From positions 1-21,530 of IMG/VR virus record IMGVR_UViG_3300014720_000222: a stretch of DNA of 21,530 bases; one strand, 5' to 3'. The position numbers were made by a program, and so were the translations under genes. Below, piece after piece: positions 15,121-20,410 of the stretch. This stretch comes from a virus. The notes below the pieces were generated by a model. That model had not been told where the DNA came from. It searched no databases and worked only from the letters and a program-made list of their open reading frames with translations. Position 1 is the stretch's first letter; every line of letters begins with the position of its first letter.

Positions 15121-15161
15121 AGGAAAAGGAAAAAGGCCCGCTGCGGGTGAGGCAACGGGCC
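15121..15161 (-). terminator. Intrinsic terminator just upstream of the late operon
   Basis: On the minus strand, GGCCCG (15161-15156) pairs with CGGGCC (15040-side arm at 15140-15135), extended after one mismatch by TGC/GCA, around a 7-base loop. It is followed by TTTTTCCTTTTCCT (15134-15121). It points left, towards the tailspike start at 15103, so it would stop transcripts before the late genes unless they are antiterminated. It lies about 90 bases downstream of the promoter candidate near 15252. Confidence 0.75.
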
Positions 15162-15251: not shown

Positions 15252-15288
15252 TAGCGAAAATATAGCATTTCAATCGCATGGCTGAAAA
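15252..15288 (-). promoter_or_regulatory. Candidate late promoter (extended -10)
   Basis: Minus strand: TGC-TATATT forms an extended -10 (hexamer 15264-15259, TGC at 15267-15265). An 18-base spacer separates it from a weak -35 TTTTCA (15288-15283, 4 of 6 matches). Predicted start is near 15252. It begins 15 bases after the stop of the gene at 15303 and faces the terminator at 15121-15161 and the late genes. Confidence 0.5.
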
Positions 15289-15302: not shown

Positions 15303-15782
15303 TCAATTTTCGGGCAGCTTCAGCACGTCAGCATGGTGTGTGAGTGCGATTCGCATGATGGGCTTGCCAGCCGATGGGTGGTCGCCGCGATTGCGTGCCC
15401 ATACCGAATGGGTTTCGCCCAGCCCTGCAATGGCAACGAGGCAGTCATAGAGGTCTTGACCGTGGGCGGTGCGGTAGATTTGTAGCTTCGCGCGCGCGGC
15501 CAGCTGGTGGTCGGACACGTGGTCCGTACCGCCCCGGATGGCGGGTTCATAGCTCTGCGCGCGGACGGGATGCCCACAGGCGACATAGTAAGTCGCCTGG
15601 AACTGATAGCCCGCCTCGGCTTGACGGCGGGTAATAGTGCCATCGGCCAAATACTGGCTGATGGCGCTCTCAATGGCAAACCACGGCTTCGGCGTCCTGT
15701 CCCTGCCGGGATCTGCTCTGAGGATGCCGCCCTGACGTTCGCGTTCGGCGGTGGGGCGGATGGGTGTTTCTGGCTGACTCAT
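15303..15782 (-). CDS. Unknown protein at the Q-antiterminator position, 159 aa
   Basis: The last gene of the replication operon encodes MSQPETPIRPTAERERQGGI... with a basic, disordered head (1-33), a helix-turn-helix-like middle (AIESAISQYLADGTITRRQA, 36-55, then AGYQFQATYYVACG), a second helical region (DHQLAARAKLQIYRTA, 91-106; YDCLVAIAGLGET, 112-124) and a helical end (PIMRIALTHHADVLKLPEN). The outline, IT-x-x-Q-x-x-AG-x-x-F followed by two helical blocks, resembles DUF6456-type alphaproteobacterial proteins, but I cannot confirm this. It overlaps the upstream gene by 4 bases (ATGA). Its stop lies 15 bases from a promoter that is followed by a terminator in front of the late genes, which is where lambdoid phages put Q. 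An antiterminator or late activator role is inference from this position. Confidence 0.6.
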   Translation of the reverse strand: MSQPETPIRPTAERERQGGILRADPGRDRTPKPWFAIESAISQYLADGTITRRQAEAGYQFQATYYVACGHPVRAQSYEPAIRGGTDHVSDHQLAARAKLQIYRTAHGQDLYDCLVAIAGLGETHSVWARNRGDHPSAGKPIMRIALTHHADVLKLPEN

Positions 15783-16732
15783 GAAACCACCTTCAACACA
15801 AAGTTGTCACCGAAATGCGCGCATAACCTGTCGCCGTAAACCGTATCAATCTTATCGCGCGCAAATTTGGACGCGACGACAAGGCTGGCAACACTGCCGT
15901 TGGGCTTGGCAGTGGCAAACCACGCTTGCCATTCTGTAGGCGGCAGGCTGGCCTTGAAGGCTTGCCAGCGCGGAATATTGTCGGCCCAGTCGGGGCCATG
16001 AGCAACGGGCCGCGTGGGGGCTTCGTCGGCCTGCAAGTAGCCTTCCCAGCGGCGTTCAGACAGCCAGCCTTGCGCGTGTTTGGCCGGGTATTCGCGGCCC
16101 CGCTTGCGCGTTTCGGCGTCGAGGAAAGCCTTGTATTTCGCCACTGCGGCAAGAAGGCTTGGCAATGGGGGCAAATGGGACTTTTGCGCCCGCCAGGACT
16201 TCAAAGCGGCGGCTTTGGACATGTTCGGACTGCGGGGGTACGCTTTCCAAAACACTTCGAAGTCAGCCAAACGCCCGTCCGGGCCGTCAGGACCGGACAT
16301 GTGTTTTATATCTTTAGATATATGTGAGTTGTGAGTTGTGTCAGCCCCAAGTGTTACCTTGGGTACGACTTCAGGTAATGCATTATCCCTCTTGGCTTGA
16401 CGTGCCGCCACACCCAACGCTGAACGAGCCATGAGGCTGTTAAAGCGTTCAACTGCTGTGGCGCGCTCTTCCTCAAGGCGCTTCTGCCGATAGCCGTCCT
16501 GTCCTTCGTGAAAGAAAGCGAGGACGGTATCCTTGTCTTCGGCCCATTCTGACTCAGAAGCGCGGGCTATTGCCCGCAGCGCGGCGTCCACCTTTGGTAG
16601 CGGCCGGTCCTGCTTCCATGAGTACATGAGCAACAGAAGGTATTGTCCATGCTGCCTGGCTGTCAGGTGCATGGTGTCTGCCAGGTAGTCCGCTATCCAA
16701 AGCGGCATGAAGTTTTCGGGGCGGTTGGTCAT
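15779..16732 (-). CDS. Phage replication protein: DUF1376 domain plus DnaA-domain-I-like C-terminus (317 aa)
   Basis: The N-terminus (about 8-95) is a clear DUF1376 domain: MPLWIADYLADTMHLTARQH, then GQYLLLLMYSWKQDRPLP. This domain is common in phage O-like replication initiators. The middle has FWKAYPRSPNMSKAAALKSW (161-180) and HAQGWLSERRWEGY (219-232), also seen in phage replication proteins. The C-terminus (about 255-316) reads RWQAFKASLPPTEWQAWFAT, then LVVASKFARDKIDTVYGDRL, ending FVLKVV. That matches the pattern of DnaA domain I (W-x-x-h ... W-F ... L-x-h-x-x-x-F-x-x-x-h-x-x-x-Y), which binds DnaB and DiaA-type partners. It may recruit the host helicase. The start overlaps the upstream stop by 4 bases. 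The family call for the N-terminus is strong, for the C-terminus moderate. Confidence 0.82.
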   Translation of the reverse strand: MTNRPENFMPLWIADYLADTMHLTARQHGQYLLLLMYSWKQDRPLPKVDAALRAIARASESEWAEDKDTVLAFFHEGQDGYRQKRLEEERATAVERFNSLMARSALGVAARQAKRDNALPEVVPKVTLGADTTHNSHISKDIKHMSGPDGPDGRLADFEVFWKAYPRSPNMSKAAALKSWRAQKSHLPPLPSLLAAVAKYKAFLDAETRKRGREYPAKHAQGWLSERRWEGYLQADEAPTRPVAHGPDWADNIPRWQAFKASLPPTEWQAWFATAKPNGSVASLVVASKFARDKIDTVYGDRLCAHFGDNFVLKVVS

Positions 16733-17244
16733 GCAGGCACCAGCGCGTGTGGAAAATCGCTGGCCGCAATCAATATCGGCGGGTCACCCCTGAAGCGCCT
16801 GACATCAAACGCAAGAAATTTCGTGCCGTCTTCATTGTCCTTGGCATGCGGCGCCACTTCTTTTCTGTCCGCACCTCGGATCAGGTGCGCGCGCCAAGAA
16901 TGCAAGTTAATCAGCATCCAGTGTGCAATGGTGTTCCCGCTTTCGGCGGCGTGTCCGTAAAACATCCAATCCCCGTAACCATTTACCAGTTTGGACAATT
17001 CAGTTTCAGCGCCACTGTCCCTATGTGAACGGACTGTAAAGTCGTACGGGTACTTTTGTGCATATCCGTATCTTCTCATGCGGCAGGCAATGCGTTTGTC
17101 GCGCGCCGCCAAAATGATCAAATCAGTCGCCCGCTTGCAGTCCTCTTCAATCGGTGCTGGTTCCAAAAGGTATGGGCCGACAATCCGCTTCATTTCAGGG
17201 ATGTAGCGGTCAGACCACGCCCTATCCTTTTGGTACTCGGTCAT
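16729..17244 (-). CDS. Conserved phage protein of unknown function, 171 aa
   Basis: MTEYQKDRAWSDRYIPEMKR... has a conserved-looking core: PAPIEEDCKRATDLIILAAR (29-48), RIACRMRRYGYAQKYPYDFT (51-70), VRSHRDSGAETELSKLVNGY (71-90), GDWMFYGHA (91-99), and HSWRAHLIR (115-123). The order acid, TDL, a strand with IACRMRR, then DFTVRS and a GAETE helix recalls the spacing of restriction-fold nucleases, but no clean PD-(D/E)xK motif is present, so I do not assign it. It overlaps both neighbours by 4 bases (ATGA) inside the replication operon, between the methylase and the DUF1376 protein. A DNA-related role is inference from context. Confidence 0.7.
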   Translation of the reverse strand: MTEYQKDRAWSDRYIPEMKRIVGPYLLEPAPIEEDCKRATDLIILAARDKRIACRMRRYGYAQKYPYDFTVRSHRDSGAETELSKLVNGYGDWMFYGHAAESGNTIAHWMLINLHSWRAHLIRGADRKEVAPHAKDNEDGTKFLAFDVRRFRGDPPILIAASDFPHALVPA

Positions 17245-18380
17245 TCCGCAGCCTCAAACTTTGAGGTTTCATTACCGTATTGACTAAAACCATCGCGCGC
17301 TTCCCGGCTGAACACGTCAATACGCGGACCCGTGGTGACGCGACGTATCACGTCATAGAATTCGTCCGGCTTGCGGCTATGTTCGCGCCGGGGGGCTTCA
17401 AAGCAGACATTGAATGCTTTAGTGTCCGCAAATGTCGGCGCCCCACGCCGGGCATAGATCGCGAATTCGCAATTGTACTGGGGCAAGCCAAAAGGTTGAA
17501 ATCCGCCCGGCTTGTGCCAGACCATGGTGAGCACATACCGAAAGCCCCAGGCGTCCAGCAGCCGCAACGACATGGGCAGGAATTTGTGCGTGGTCCAGCA
17601 AAACAGGTGGCAGTCATCTGCCGCCATATCTGCGACAGGGAACGCGGCCAGCTGGTCTTCCGCCATGATCGGATAATCGAAAGCAACCTGATGCTCACGA
17701 ACATCACGCTCGATCTTTTCCATTGGCCACGGCGGGTCGATGACGATCGTGCTGAATTTGCCCGCTGGGATGTGTACCGGCGTGGCGGCGATGGCTAGGA
17801 TTTCTGCGCGTCGAACTTCTGCCTTGTGAATGCGTATCCGCTTCGCCGCTTCCAGAATTTCCTTTTCGCCCTTGGCGACGATTTCCGTCTGTTCGACCTT
17901 GGGCAAGGTCGCCACGTCAGCGGCGGCACTGACAGATACCCTGCCCGCTTCAACGGCTTTCACTAGTTCGGGCGTCCCCTGCTTATGAACTGTCTTGGCG
18001 CGCTCAACACTCGCACGACCAACATTGAGCATCGTTGAAGCTACCTCAATTGAGGTACCTTGAACTTTGTCACCGCGTTGCCCGTCTTGCAGGGACGCAA
18101 TTTTGGCCCCCGCCATCGCCCTCTGGCTTTCGTCCAGGTGCCGCCGCGCCACGTTCTTTGACACGACAAACGCCACCGGGTCAGCCCCTTCGAACACTTC
18201 GAAGTGCGGCTCTACCCCAGCTGCAACGCACGCCCTGTAGCGATTGCGCCCGTCCAGAATATCGCCGTCGAGCGTGACAATGGCTTCAAGCAATCCCTGC
18301 TTGGCCACGTCAGCAACAAGCGCGTCAAATTCCGCGCCTTCGATCAAAGGAAACACGTCTGCAAGGGGGTGATATTTCAT
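17241..18380 (-). CDS. ParB-like domain fused to MT-A70-type adenine methyltransferase (379 aa)
   Basis: Residues about 1-100 form a ParB/Srx-like N-terminal domain: DGDILDGRNRYRACVAAGVE (38-57) and KNVARRHLDESQRAMAGAKI (75-94), the two ParB box-like motifs. A helical linker follows (105-200). Residues about 205-370 form an MT-A70 family N6-adenine methyltransferase with the catalytic DPPW motif (IVIDPPW, 212-218), HLFCWTTHKFLP (258-269), WGFRYVLTMVWHKPG (278-292) and EFYDVIRRV (340-348). It probably methylates adenine in phage or host DNA using S-adenosylmethionine. The ATG at 18380 overlaps the upstream stop (ATGA), which supports this start over one at 18467. No restriction enzyme gene is adjacent, so it looks like an orphan methylase, perhaps for protection against host restriction. 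Confidence 0.88.
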   Translation of the reverse strand: MKYHPLADVFPLIEGAEFDALVADVAKQGLLEAIVTLDGDILDGRNRYRACVAAGVEPHFEVFEGADPVAFVVSKNVARRHLDESQRAMAGAKIASLQDGQRGDKVQGTSIEVASTMLNVGRASVERAKTVHKQGTPELVKAVEAGRVSVSAAADVATLPKVEQTEIVAKGEKEILEAAKRIRIHKAEVRRAEILAIAATPVHIPAGKFSTIVIDPPWPMEKIERDVREHQVAFDYPIMAEDQLAAFPVADMAADDCHLFCWTTHKFLPMSLRLLDAWGFRYVLTMVWHKPGGFQPFGLPQYNCEFAIYARRGAPTFADTKAFNVCFEAPRREHSRKPDEFYDVIRRVTTGPRIDVFSREARDGFSQYGNETSKFEAAE

Positions 18381-18631
18381 GCGCGTACCGTTGGGTTGGG
18401 GTTTAGGGCATGCACCGGCCAGCCGCCGACCATGTCGGAGCGAATGCAGAAAACCTGGCCGGGGCAATGGGCCGCGCGGTCACCAAGCTCGATGGACGTG
18501 GCCACGTTTGTGGTGACAATCTTGCCCTTGTCAGCCCAGTAATCGCGGATGCGCTGGGCCAGTACTTGTGCGTGATGCAGCTGGCACCAATCGCGGCTGG
18601 GAAGGCTGGTCGGGGTCTGGCGTCCGGTCAT
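18377..18631 (-). CDS. Hypothetical 84-aa protein
   Basis: I start this gene at the ATG at 18631, which overlaps the DUF1064 stop by 4 bases. The same frame is open much further upstream, but that part runs antiparallel in composition to the DUF1064 gene and is not coding. The product MTGRQTPTSLPSRDWCQLHH has a helix AQVLAQRIRDYWADKG (21-36), then ATSIELGDRAAHCPGQVFCI (44-63) and GGWPVHALNP. The last part could be a short beta sheet with two Cys. It is tightly coupled with the methylase (ATGA overlap). No family is recognised. Confidence 0.68.
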   Translation of the reverse strand: MTGRQTPTSLPSRDWCQLHHAQVLAQRIRDYWADKGKIVTTNVATSIELGDRAAHCPGQVFCIRSDMVGGWPVHALNPNPTVRA

Positions 18632-19023
18632 ATCTCTTGGACCTCGATGTTCAGCAAAGCGCGCATCAGTTTCTTTTTCAGTCTGTAGACCGGCGTCTGC
18701 ACGCCTTTGCTGTCCACCACGACGCGCTTGCCGTTTTTGAAAAAAACCGCGTCGGCAATGTAGGTCGTGACCAGCTGGCCGTTGACCGACAGCCGGAACT
18801 TCGGCTGACGTTCCAAGCGGGTAATCAAGCCCGCCTTCTCGCGCAGCTTTAGGGCGCACCAATCGGCATATTCTTTCTTGCTGGCGAAGCGGCCTTCTTC
18901 GGTCACGATGGGCTGGTTTTTGTATTTCCTGCGTGAGGGAGCGGCTGGCGCACCGGACAGGGTATCGCCAGCCGCCGACGCGCGCGCTGCCTTCGGGGGG
19001 AATGTGCGCGCGTGTTTCTTCAC
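18628..19023 (-). CDS. DUF1064 family PD-(D/E)xK-like nuclease (131 aa)
   Basis: After a basic disordered head (1-30), the sequence shows RKYKNQPI (32-39), GRFASKKEYADWCALKLREK (44-63), GLITRLERQPKFRLSV (65-80), YIADAVFF (88-95), VVVDSKGVQTPVYRLKKKLM (101-120). This matches the DUF1064 pattern, with candidate active-site residues E51, D91, D104 and K106 (D-x-K followed by G and T). Such small phage proteins are thought to be structure-specific or Holliday-junction-like endonucleases. A role in processing replication or recombination intermediates fits the operon. The start at 19023 overlaps the preceding gene by 4 bases. Confidence 0.82.
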   Translation of the reverse strand: MKKHARTFPPKAARASAAGDTLSGAPAAPSRRKYKNQPIVTEEGRFASKKEYADWCALKLREKAGLITRLERQPKFRLSVNGQLVTTYIADAVFFKNGKRVVVDSKGVQTPVYRLKKKLMRALLNIEVQEI

Positions 19024-19241
19024 TTCGCCGCCACCTTGAGTTCAAGGATGTCGCTCTGTTCGTTTTCAAGGATTGGACGCGGGTTTGCTGGCGCCTTCTC
19101 GACAACGCAGCTGCGAACGTGGGCCAGGATGCGGTCGATGAGGATCTCACGCTTGGACAGATGGCCCCGGCCCGCGAGCGGGTCGGCGTCCACTTGCACG
19201 AAAATCTGTTCAAGCGTTGCTTTTGTCAGTTGTGTATTCAC
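19020..19241 (-). CDS. Hypothetical 73-aa protein, probable GTG start
   Basis: A GTG at 19241 has AAGGAG 7 bases upstream and follows the preceding stop by 19 bases, so I prefer it. An ATG at 19316, also with AAAGGA upstream, would add 25 residues but overlap the upstream gene by 56 bases. The product (M)NTQLTKATLEQIFVQVDADP... has HLSKREILIDRILAHVRSCV (27-46), a helical, charged segment, and an acidic end. No family is recognised. It lies between the DnaA domain IV gene and the nuclease gene. Confidence 0.6.
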   Translation of the reverse strand: MNTQLTKATLEQIFVQVDADPLAGRGHLSKREILIDRILAHVRSCVVEKAPANPRPILENEQSDILELKVAAK

Positions 19242-19260
19242 GTCAGTCTCCTTGCGGCTG

Positions 19261-19788
19261 CTAAACCATGTCGGCTTGGGAAGCTGGTTGACTGGCTTCC
19301 ATGGTCGCTTGGTCATTGGCTTTCCTTTCAGAAATAACCCCCGCCTTACGCTTCGCCGCGCGGTTTTCCCGCGCCAGCTTTATCGTTCCGTGTTCGTACA
19401 TCGTGGGACGGCGCGTCATGTTCATGACGCTGGTGTGATCCATGCCGCCAAAGAATTGACCGATGCGCGGGAAGGACCAGCCCTTCACCTCGCGCAACCG
19501 CTTCATGACGTCACAGCGTGCATTGACGATCCGCGTGCAGCGCGACCTCGTCATGATGTCTTTGGTGGTCAGGTTGGTGCCGTTAATGGCGTTGTGCCAC
19601 CAGAGGATCTCGGCCACGAGTTCGCGCGTGGCGCGCGCGGGCGTGTTGATGTCATCGCTGGCGCGGCGCTGGTTCCACACCGCGCTTTCCGGCACGCCAA
19701 GGCGTCGCGCTTCGGCAATCGTGTCTTCATCATTAGTTGGTAAATCCGCGAAGCGTGAGGCAGCGCATGGACGGGATGTCTGGTCCAT
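19261..19788 (-). CDS. DnaA domain IV (DNA-binding) protein, 175 aa
   Basis: The region about residues 55-128 matches the DnaA C-terminal domain: ELVAEILWWHNAINGTNLTT (56-75), KDIMTRSRCTRIVNARCDVM (76-95), KRLREVKGWSFPRIGQFFGG (96-115), MDHTSVMNMTRRP (116-128). The G-x-F-x-G-x-DHTSV signature is the helix-turn-helix that binds DnaA boxes. The AAA+ part of DnaA is absent, so this is a stand-alone DNA-binding domain. It could compete with host DnaA for its boxes or mark the phage origin. A long N-terminal tail and a basic C-terminal tail (KLARENRAAKRKA) flank it. I start at the ATG at 19788; the in-frame extension to 19902 would overlap the Cro-like gene. Confidence 0.82.
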   Translation of the reverse strand: MDQTSRPCAASRFADLPTNDEDTIAEARRLGVPESAVWNQRRASDDINTPARATRELVAEILWWHNAINGTNLTTKDIMTRSRCTRIVNARCDVMKRLREVKGWSFPRIGQFFGGMDHTSVMNMTRRPTMYEHGTIKLARENRAAKRKAGVISERKANDQATMEASQPASQADMV

Positions 19789-19792
19789 GGTT

Positions 19793-20029
19793 CTATTCTG
19801 CTGCCTGAACTGTTTGGGGAATGGATGCCAAGGACAGGCCAAGAAGGTCATCGGCAGTGACCGCACCGCCGCTGGCTTCGTAGACCTTGCGAATGACATC
19901 AACGCTGACGCGGTTTCTGTACTTCTCAGGGCGACACAGCTTGCTGACGCACGCCTTGCTTAGGCCCGCTTCGCGCGCGAACTCGACCTGGCGCTTGTTT
20001 CTGCTGATAAGGTATTGGCGAAGGTTCAT
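19793..20029 (-). CDS. Cro-like HTH regulator (78 aa)
   Basis: The first gene of the leftward replication operon encodes MNLRQYLISRNKRQVEFARE..., with a helix-turn-helix at about 13-35 (QVEFAREAGLSKACVSKLCR) and a third helix (VSVDVIRKVYEASGGAVTAD, 41-60). It resembles short Cro/YdaS-type XRE proteins. It is divergent from the CI-like gene at 20105, with a 75-base control region between them. It most likely represses the repressor gene or the early operons. No Shine-Dalgarno is visible before the ATG, and the predicted promoter leaves an almost leaderless transcript. Confidence 0.8.
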   Translation of the reverse strand: MNLRQYLISRNKRQVEFAREAGLSKACVSKLCRPEKYRNRVSVDVIRKVYEASGGAVTADDLLGLSLASIPQTVQAAE

Positions 20030-20077: not shown

Positions 20078-20104
20078 CAGCGCGACTGTTTTATGCTTCC
20101 CCCC

Positions 20105-20410
20105 ATGACCAGAGGCACGGGCAGGAACCTATTCAGGAAGTGGCGCGACCACTGCCAGCTGACGCAGGACCAAGTGGCCCAGCGAACGGGCCTGCCGAAG
20201 TCCACAGTGTCCAAACTGGAAAACGGGAAAATGGAATATACCCAAGGCCACCTTGAGGCTTTGGCGCATGCCTATGGTGTCGAACCCGCTGACTTGATCG
20301 GCAGGCTGCCGGGCGCACCCCAGGAACTCACCTTGTTGGTGAACAAAATCCCGGCTGAAAACAGGGAAGCCGCAATCACCGTTCTGAAAGCTTTGATCAA
20401 GGTCGCTTAA
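20105..20410 (+). CDS. CI-like XRE repressor, short form (101 aa)
   Basis: MTRGTGRNLFRKWRDHCQLT contains an XRE helix-turn-helix: LTQDQVAQRTGLPKSTVSKL (19-38), ENGKMEYTQGHLEALAHAYG (39-58), VEPADLIG (59-66). The C-terminal part (70-101) is a short helix (AENREAAITVLKALIKVA), perhaps for dimerisation. It has no LexA/S24 peptidase domain, so induction by RecA self-cleavage is not expected. An ATG at 20093 would add four residues (MLPP); neither start has a Shine-Dalgarno. It is the best candidate for the lysogeny repressor because it is divergent from the Cro-like gene. Confidence 0.8.
   Translation: MTRGTGRNLFRKWRDHCQLTQDQVAQRTGLPKSTVSKLENGKMEYTQGHLEALAHAYGVEPADLIGRLPGAPQELTLLVNKIPAENREAAITVLKALIKVA

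Follow-up and report, generated by a model that had tools for sequence, protein, structure and literature searches.

A DnaA domain I-like tail on a phage DUF1376 protein and a stand-alone DnaA domain IV gene in one early operon

Background

Can a phage operate two separate pieces of the bacterial initiator DnaA as one split initiator, or do the pieces serve different ends? The question is raised by IMG/VR virus record IMGVR_UViG_3300014720_000222, whose whole length of 21,530 bases (the window) was analysed and in whose early operon a DUF1376 protein (P0001) and a small protein related to DnaA domain IV (P0002) are encoded. A first-pass annotation made from the sequence had read the end of P0001 as DnaA domain I, and the two proteins together as a split mimic that binds DnaA boxes and loads the host helicase outside DnaA ATP control. 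Both genes lie where it had placed them, but on the minus strand. Related loci are referred to below by L numbers.

Results

DnaA domain I-like tail of P0001

P0001 belongs to the DUF1376 family by its N-terminal domain (67.2 bits, cut-off 30.1), and the PHROGs matched by DUF1376 carry the name primosomal protein. The model of this domain resembles the winged-helix initiators DnaD, plasmid RepA (N-domain) and ORC2, with weak scores. By sequence profiles and structure model, the C-terminus of P0001 is a genuine DnaA domain I, as the first-pass annotation had supposed by eye. Residues 257–304 matched the Pfam family DnaA_N (PF11638) with an E-value of 2.5e-4 and 21.1 bits; because this score lies under the curated cut-off of 24.6, the tail was filed as DnaA_N-like and not as a Pfam member. 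An own hidden Markov model (HMM), built from 27 alphaproteobacterial DnaA domain I sequences, was run on 160 distinct DUF1376 open reading frames (ORFs) and 3,200 shuffled sequences. Four of the 160 ORFs were matched (P0001, E-value 1.5e-5; its close relative L002, 1.6e-4; L021, 8.9e-8; L111, 8.5e-5); the next real ORF followed only at 0.31, a gap from 1.6e-4, and the best shuffled sequence reached 0.0083.

The tail alone was modelled with AlphaFold2 (AF2) from an alignment of five phage or prophage tails, DnaA sequences being excluded. The model had a predicted local distance difference test score (pLDDT) of 85.4 and a predicted template modelling score of 0.68 (the remaining four models averaged 62–76), and its secondary structure elements run in the order helix-helix-strand-strand-helix-strand. 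In a Foldseek search of the PDB, the first five rows were all DnaA domain I, from B. subtilis, E. coli and H. pylori (4tps, 2e0g, 2wp0; probability 0.82–0.99), with E-values of 0.035–0.14 that are not significant by themselves. VIA-align gave Z-scores of 8.5 (65 residues, 2.0 Å), 8.0 and 6.1 against DnaA domain I, the first unrelated row scoring 5.1. The tail is thus matched both by profile and by fold. When the PDB was searched by sequence with only the tail as query, DnaA was not among the matches, which were two alpha-mannosidase chains only (E-value 1.2). Aligned by eye, W256, E267 and F290 of P0001 stand at the positions of E. coli W6, E21 and F46. The W6 equivalent is kept, and all four aligned tails have an aromatic residue at the F46 position (F in P0001, L002 and L021, Y in L319).

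The tail was found in three DUF1376 lineages, namely the window with L002 and L003, L021 with L319, and L111. DnaA_N scores in L002, L021 and L319 were 18.3, 20.5 and 16.3 bits, all below the cut-off, and the Terriglobus albidus prophage L111 exceeded it with 34.2 bits. L319 was retrieved by a viral scan with the L021 protein as query; no further tailed relatives came up when the L111 and A1 proteins served as queries. A tree of DUF1376 plus the middle domain (19 rows) did not resolve the two tailed lineages, one gain and two gains being indistinguishable on it. Outside the family, the unrelated initiator of Brevibacillus phage SecTim467 combines HTH_36 with a C-terminal DnaA_N domain above the Pfam cut-off, and its 130 kb record gave no Bac_DnaA_C match.

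Two further observations concern the C-termini of DUF1376 proteins. The acidobacterial DUF1376::DnaA_N fusion on the T. albidus contig (L111:9998-11092) has no domain IV found within its 20 kb locus. The proteins of L098, L100 and L104 end, in place of domain I, in a short common W...WGP.PG..GC motif that is perhaps another docking module.

Stand-alone domain IV protein P0002

P0002 was matched by Bac_DnaA_C (PF08299) with an E-value of 2.7e-10 and 40.5 bits, over the cut-off of 31.5, and the first-pass identification of the second operon gene as a stand-alone domain IV is upheld. The AAA+ domain, described there as missing from both proteins, gave no profile match in either P0001 or P0002, and neither is a full DnaA. 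The DnaA-box-reading residues R399, P423, D433, H434 and T435 are kept in P0002, with T436 replaced by S, Q408 by C and L422 by F. Across the stand-alone domain IV sequences of phages (102, duplicates included), H434 was kept in 102, D433 in 99, R399 in 96, T435 in 91 and P423 in 90; in 28 GafY sequences, H434 is replaced by R in every one and P423 kept in none. In a FastTree phylogeny, P0002 grouped with L002 and L045 (0.941) and GafY formed a separate clade (26/26, support 0.999). P0002 was accordingly rejected as a GafY orthologue, both by its kept H434 and by its place outside the GafY clade. Its family is a large one among phages, lying in such early operons and mostly without domain I. 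Across 249 Rhizobiales-type genomes, the best Bac_DnaA_C match among the matches listed was the host DnaA.

Three viral contigs carry a complete DnaA, with DnaA_N, Bac_DnaA and Bac_DnaA_C all above cut-off, apparently in the early phage region (L252:6762-8285, L258:6840-8285, L273:6882-8288); by eye, L258 also has a DnaN-looking ORF.

DnaA-box-like sites

The search for DnaA-box-like sites that the first-pass annotation had suggested returned no cluster, either in the window (16 sites within one mismatch, 21.5 expected) or in 98 domain IV loci, where at most 2 sites fell within 400 base pairs (bp). A DnaA-box origin was rejected on the absence of such a cluster from both. Exact TTATCCACA occurred 8 times in the 98 loci (3.4 expected) and sites with up to one mismatch 141 times (121.8 expected), as compared with 5 (6 expected) and 196 (173 expected) in the 123 control loci listed, from which loci below 5 kb were skipped. 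Upstream of the domain IV ORFs, the nearest 500 bp held 12 near-sites in a total of 49 kb, a weak excess (0.243 per kb vs at most 0.177 in other bins).

Single sites were also seen. L045 holds the closest relative of P0002 apart from L002; there, an exact TTATCCACA and a DnaA-box-like ATATCCACA on the opposite strand lie 35 bp apart (L045:6260-6303), about 70–106 bp upstream of the domain IV ORF. The window has a lone exact match to TTWTNCACA (TTTTCCACA, positions 16748–16756, minus strand), which precedes the DUF1376 start codon by 16 bp and has no cluster nearby.

Co-occurrence of domain IV and DUF6456

The first-pass annotation had overlooked a DUF6456-like gene that adjoins the initiator gene and whose product is among the seeds of the own DUF6456 HMM. 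GafY (domain IV-like) and GafZ (DUF6456) are described as an activator/antiterminator pair of gene transfer agents (GTAs), GafY being homologous to DnaA domain IV (PMC9632790) and GafZ an antiterminator (Tran and Le, PMC11150451); relatives of GafA are annotated as DUF6456, the GafA N-terminal region is given as DnaA-like and DNA-binding, and in Hyphomicrobiales GafA is split into two genes (Sherlock and Fogg, PMC9638019). GafY was first named as a replication factor in the HdaB paper, as cited in PMC9632790. Among the control genomes, PF20057 matches were found in Caulobacter, and a domain IV-like ORF adjoins DUF6456 in 27 of 30 Rhizobiales loci.

For phages, 168 DUF1376 loci were reduced to 146 clusters at 85% identity (L001, L003, L009, L010, L207 and L178–L206 excluded). 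Domain IV was found in 37 clusters, a DUF6456-like gene in 29, both in 15 and neither in 95, an association with an odds ratio of 4.6 (Fisher p 5.6e-4) that persisted in loci with at least 3 kb on either side (n = 102, p 1.2e-3). DUF1376 shares its strand with every one of the 37 domain IV genes and with 27 of the 29 DUF6456 genes. Of 80 viral loci centred on domain IV, 10 contained DUF1376 and 19 contained DUF6456, the latter lying in each case downstream of domain IV and on its strand; the loci are the best 80 of at least 512 candidates and, since they were picked by similarity to L011, a biased sample.

Layout of the early operon

On the minus strand, the early operon begins with a Cro-like gene and extends through domain IV, a 98-residue protein, DUF1064, ParB/MT-A70, a 171-residue protein and DUF1376 to the DUF6456-like gene (Table 1). 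Its genes nearly touch or overlap: the domain IV gene is second, 4 bp from the Cro-like gene, short overlaps continue to the DUF1376 gene, and a gap of 199 bases separates the DUF6456-like gene from a tail-type gene. The terminase, portal and major head genes are likewise all on the minus strand. The early genes end with the DUF6456-like gene; beyond it come a promoter-like site, a terminator and then the late genes, which gives it a position like that of lambda Q. Intrinsic terminators within 450 bp after the DUF6456 gene were found at 8 of 25 loci and in 11 of 250 random control stretches (p 5.8e-5), which fits a Q-like position but equally any operon end. The ParB-like N-terminus of the 17241–18386 product is fused to MT-A70; the same slot in L002 apparently holds another DNA methyltransferase (by eye).

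Table 1. Coordinates of features in the window
Feature	Position	Strand	Basis
P0001, putative initiator/primosomal protein, 317 residues: DUF1376, middle helical domain, DnaA domain I-like tail	15779..16732	-	
DUF1376 domain, residues 6-88	16469..16717	-	Pfam E 1.7e-18
Middle helical domain, about residues 154-236	16025..16273	-	AF2 pLDDT >90 over most; HMM in relatives
DnaA domain I tail, about residues 249-317	15782..15988	-	Sequence profiles, AF2 model, fold comparison
P0002, stand-alone DnaA domain IV protein, 175 residues	19261..19788	-	Profile match
Bac_DnaA_C domain of P0002, residues 71-126	19411..19578	-	PF08299 match
DUF6456 (GafZ C-terminal)-like gene, directly downstream of initiator gene	15303..15782	-	PF20057 E 1.1e-4, 22.7 bits, cut-off 26.3
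Intrinsic terminator between DUF6456 gene and late genes	15135..15161	-	10-pair stem and T run
Promoter-like site upstream of the terminator	15259..15288	-	Weak; total site count equals chance
Cro-like first gene of early operon	19793..20029	-	HTH_26 E 5.8e-4
Divergent repressor-like helix-turn-helix gene	20093..20410	+	HTH_3 E 1.2e-13
DUF1064 / Holliday-junction-resolvase-like gene, early operon	18628..19023	-	Profile match
ParB-like and MT-A70 methyltransferase gene, early operon	17241..18386	-	Profile match

Discussion

The explanation that we prefer, and to which we give an even chance, is a lambda-like early cassette, in which an initiator with its own DnaB dock is accompanied by a separate domain IV regulator acting with the DUF6456 protein. 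The window would be the early operon of a temperate-type phage and P0001 its replication initiator or primosomal protein, whose winged-helix-like DUF1376 N-terminus may meet the phage origin and whose C-terminal domain I may dock the host DnaB helicase there. E. coli DnaA domain I is described in a review as contacting DnaB via E21 and F46 (PMC5448010), and on a phage initiator the domain would most simply be a dock for host DnaB, by which the phage would borrow the helicase-recruiting surface of the host without the DnaA ATPase. P0002 is predicted to bind DnaA-box-like DNA. We take it for an accessory DNA-binding regulator of this early/replication region that probably controls gene expression jointly with the GafZ/Q-like DUF6456 protein, and not for the obligate half of a split DnaA.

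Several results weigh against this preferred cassette. The DnaA_N score of the tail is slightly below the Pfam cut-off, its fold is also like that of the DciA domain, and the E21 position varies among the tails (E in P0001, H in L002, A in L021) and is V or similar in most alphaproteobacterial DnaAs of the alignment. The DUF6456 match in the window is weak and under its cut-off, and the equivalent gap examined in L002 holds neither a terminator nor a promoter-like site. On the other side, tests of the four DnaA_N-tailed virus records brought up neither a DnaB-like nor an IstB/DnaC-like gene; at an E-value of 0.01, however, DnaB_C was found in only 7 and IstB in 4 of 34 other DUF1376 records. 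Such absence was discarded as a mark of tailed phages, since most other DUF1376 phages are without both genes too.

A purely transcriptional reading, possible if somewhat doubtful in our estimate, makes domain IV the activator of phage promoters and DUF6456 a Q-like antiterminator of the late genes, with no replication role for either. The GafY/GafZ precedent in GTAs and the adjoining ORFs of the Rhizobiales loci speak for it, as do the association of domain IV with DUF6456 in phages, the downstream same-strand DUF6456 genes of the IV-centred loci and a Q-like layout that closes with a strong terminator. It is opposed by the separate GafY clade with its uniform H434 to R change, as against the DnaA-type reading residues of P0002, by the 3.5 kb between the two genes in the window, and by 22 of the 37 IV-positive DUF1376 clusters, in which the stretch examined contains no DUF6456. 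The split mimic of the first-pass annotation, with domain IV at DnaA-box-like sites of the phage origin meeting the initiator, domain I bringing DnaB and ATP control bypassed, seems unlikely to us. The two pieces do share an operon, and they do so again in L021 and L319, the latter also repeating the gene order that starts with a Cro-like gene; in L252, L258 and L273, moreover, the domain IV match belongs to a complete DnaA (domains I, III and IV). Domain IV nevertheless occurs mostly without domain I (domain IV in 37 of 146 DUF1376 clusters vs a domain I tail in 4 of 160 DUF1376 proteins, and the 80 IV-centred loci), the SecTim467 tail occurs without domain IV, and no DnaA-box cluster was detected. 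Two of three tailed lineages have domain IV against a background of 25%, so the pairing of the two pieces is not significant. What stands of the original interpretation is the domain I tail, a domain IV that keeps its reading residues and an arrangement that recurs; obligate pairing is not borne out.

Takeover of the host is an improbable alternative, in which domain IV would occupy host DnaA boxes, or the tail sequester DnaA, DnaB or DiaA-like factors, or both, shutting down oriC as proposed for YfdR. That prophage protein is reported to bind DnaA domain I via F46 and to inhibit initiation, and P0002 has the DnaA-type reading residues and the tail the W6 equivalent; both pieces, however, lie within the replication operon, and the fusion of the tail to a primosomal-type protein points to phage replication. 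We consider it very improbable that the tail mimics a DciA-type loader of like fold and is not DnaA-derived. The central domain of the helicase loader DciA is reported to be similar to DnaA domain I, and VIA-align gave DciA Z-scores of 4.6 and 4.0; DnaA domain I scored higher by structure and was matched by sequence profiles, and the profile ranking of DnaA_N over DUF721 already weighs against DciA. On a broader view, phages may have dismantled DnaA, keeping it whole in some, domain IV alone in many and domain I moved onto a primosomal protein in few, with the pieces forming a two-protein, ATP-independent initiator whose expression is enough to make it fire; we think this distinctly unlikely. 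If the tail of P0001 docks DnaB as in the preferred cassette, it amounts to a minimal test, provided by nature, of whether domain I by itself suffices for helicase recruitment without the DnaA ATPase and the origin filament.

Comparison with known systems

The open literature, as searched on DUF1376, DnaA domains and phage initiators, yielded no account of DnaA_N fused to DUF1376 or of such a fusion paired with domain IV. Chromosomal DnaA shares domains I and IV, which in the window are distributed over two proteins. The SecTim467 replicon initiation protein (ALA07507.1, putative) is, like P0001, a winged-helix initiator with a C-terminal DnaA_N domain, and differs in its N-terminus, which is of another family. 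An uncultured Caudovirales "DnaA N-terminal domain containing protein" of about 340 residues (A0A6J5SN45) has a tail-like fold, the match being weak (E-value 0.42, probability 0.75). In the Rhizobium phages RHph_N28_2 and RHph_TM3_3_3, the DUF1376 gene is followed directly by a gene annotated as DnaA-like, but the DUF1376 protein of RHph_N28_2 has no DnaA_N match. The GafY/GafZ and GafA systems of alphaproteobacterial GTAs likewise combine a domain IV-like protein with a DUF6456 protein, as does this alphaproteobacterial-type phage element; P0002, however, does not have the GafY signature of H434 changed to R and a lost G, and in the phage the two genes are not adjacent and the DUF6456 protein is shorter. 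The widespread association of domain IV with DUF6456 suggests an origin of GafY and GafZ in the ordinary early operons of phages.

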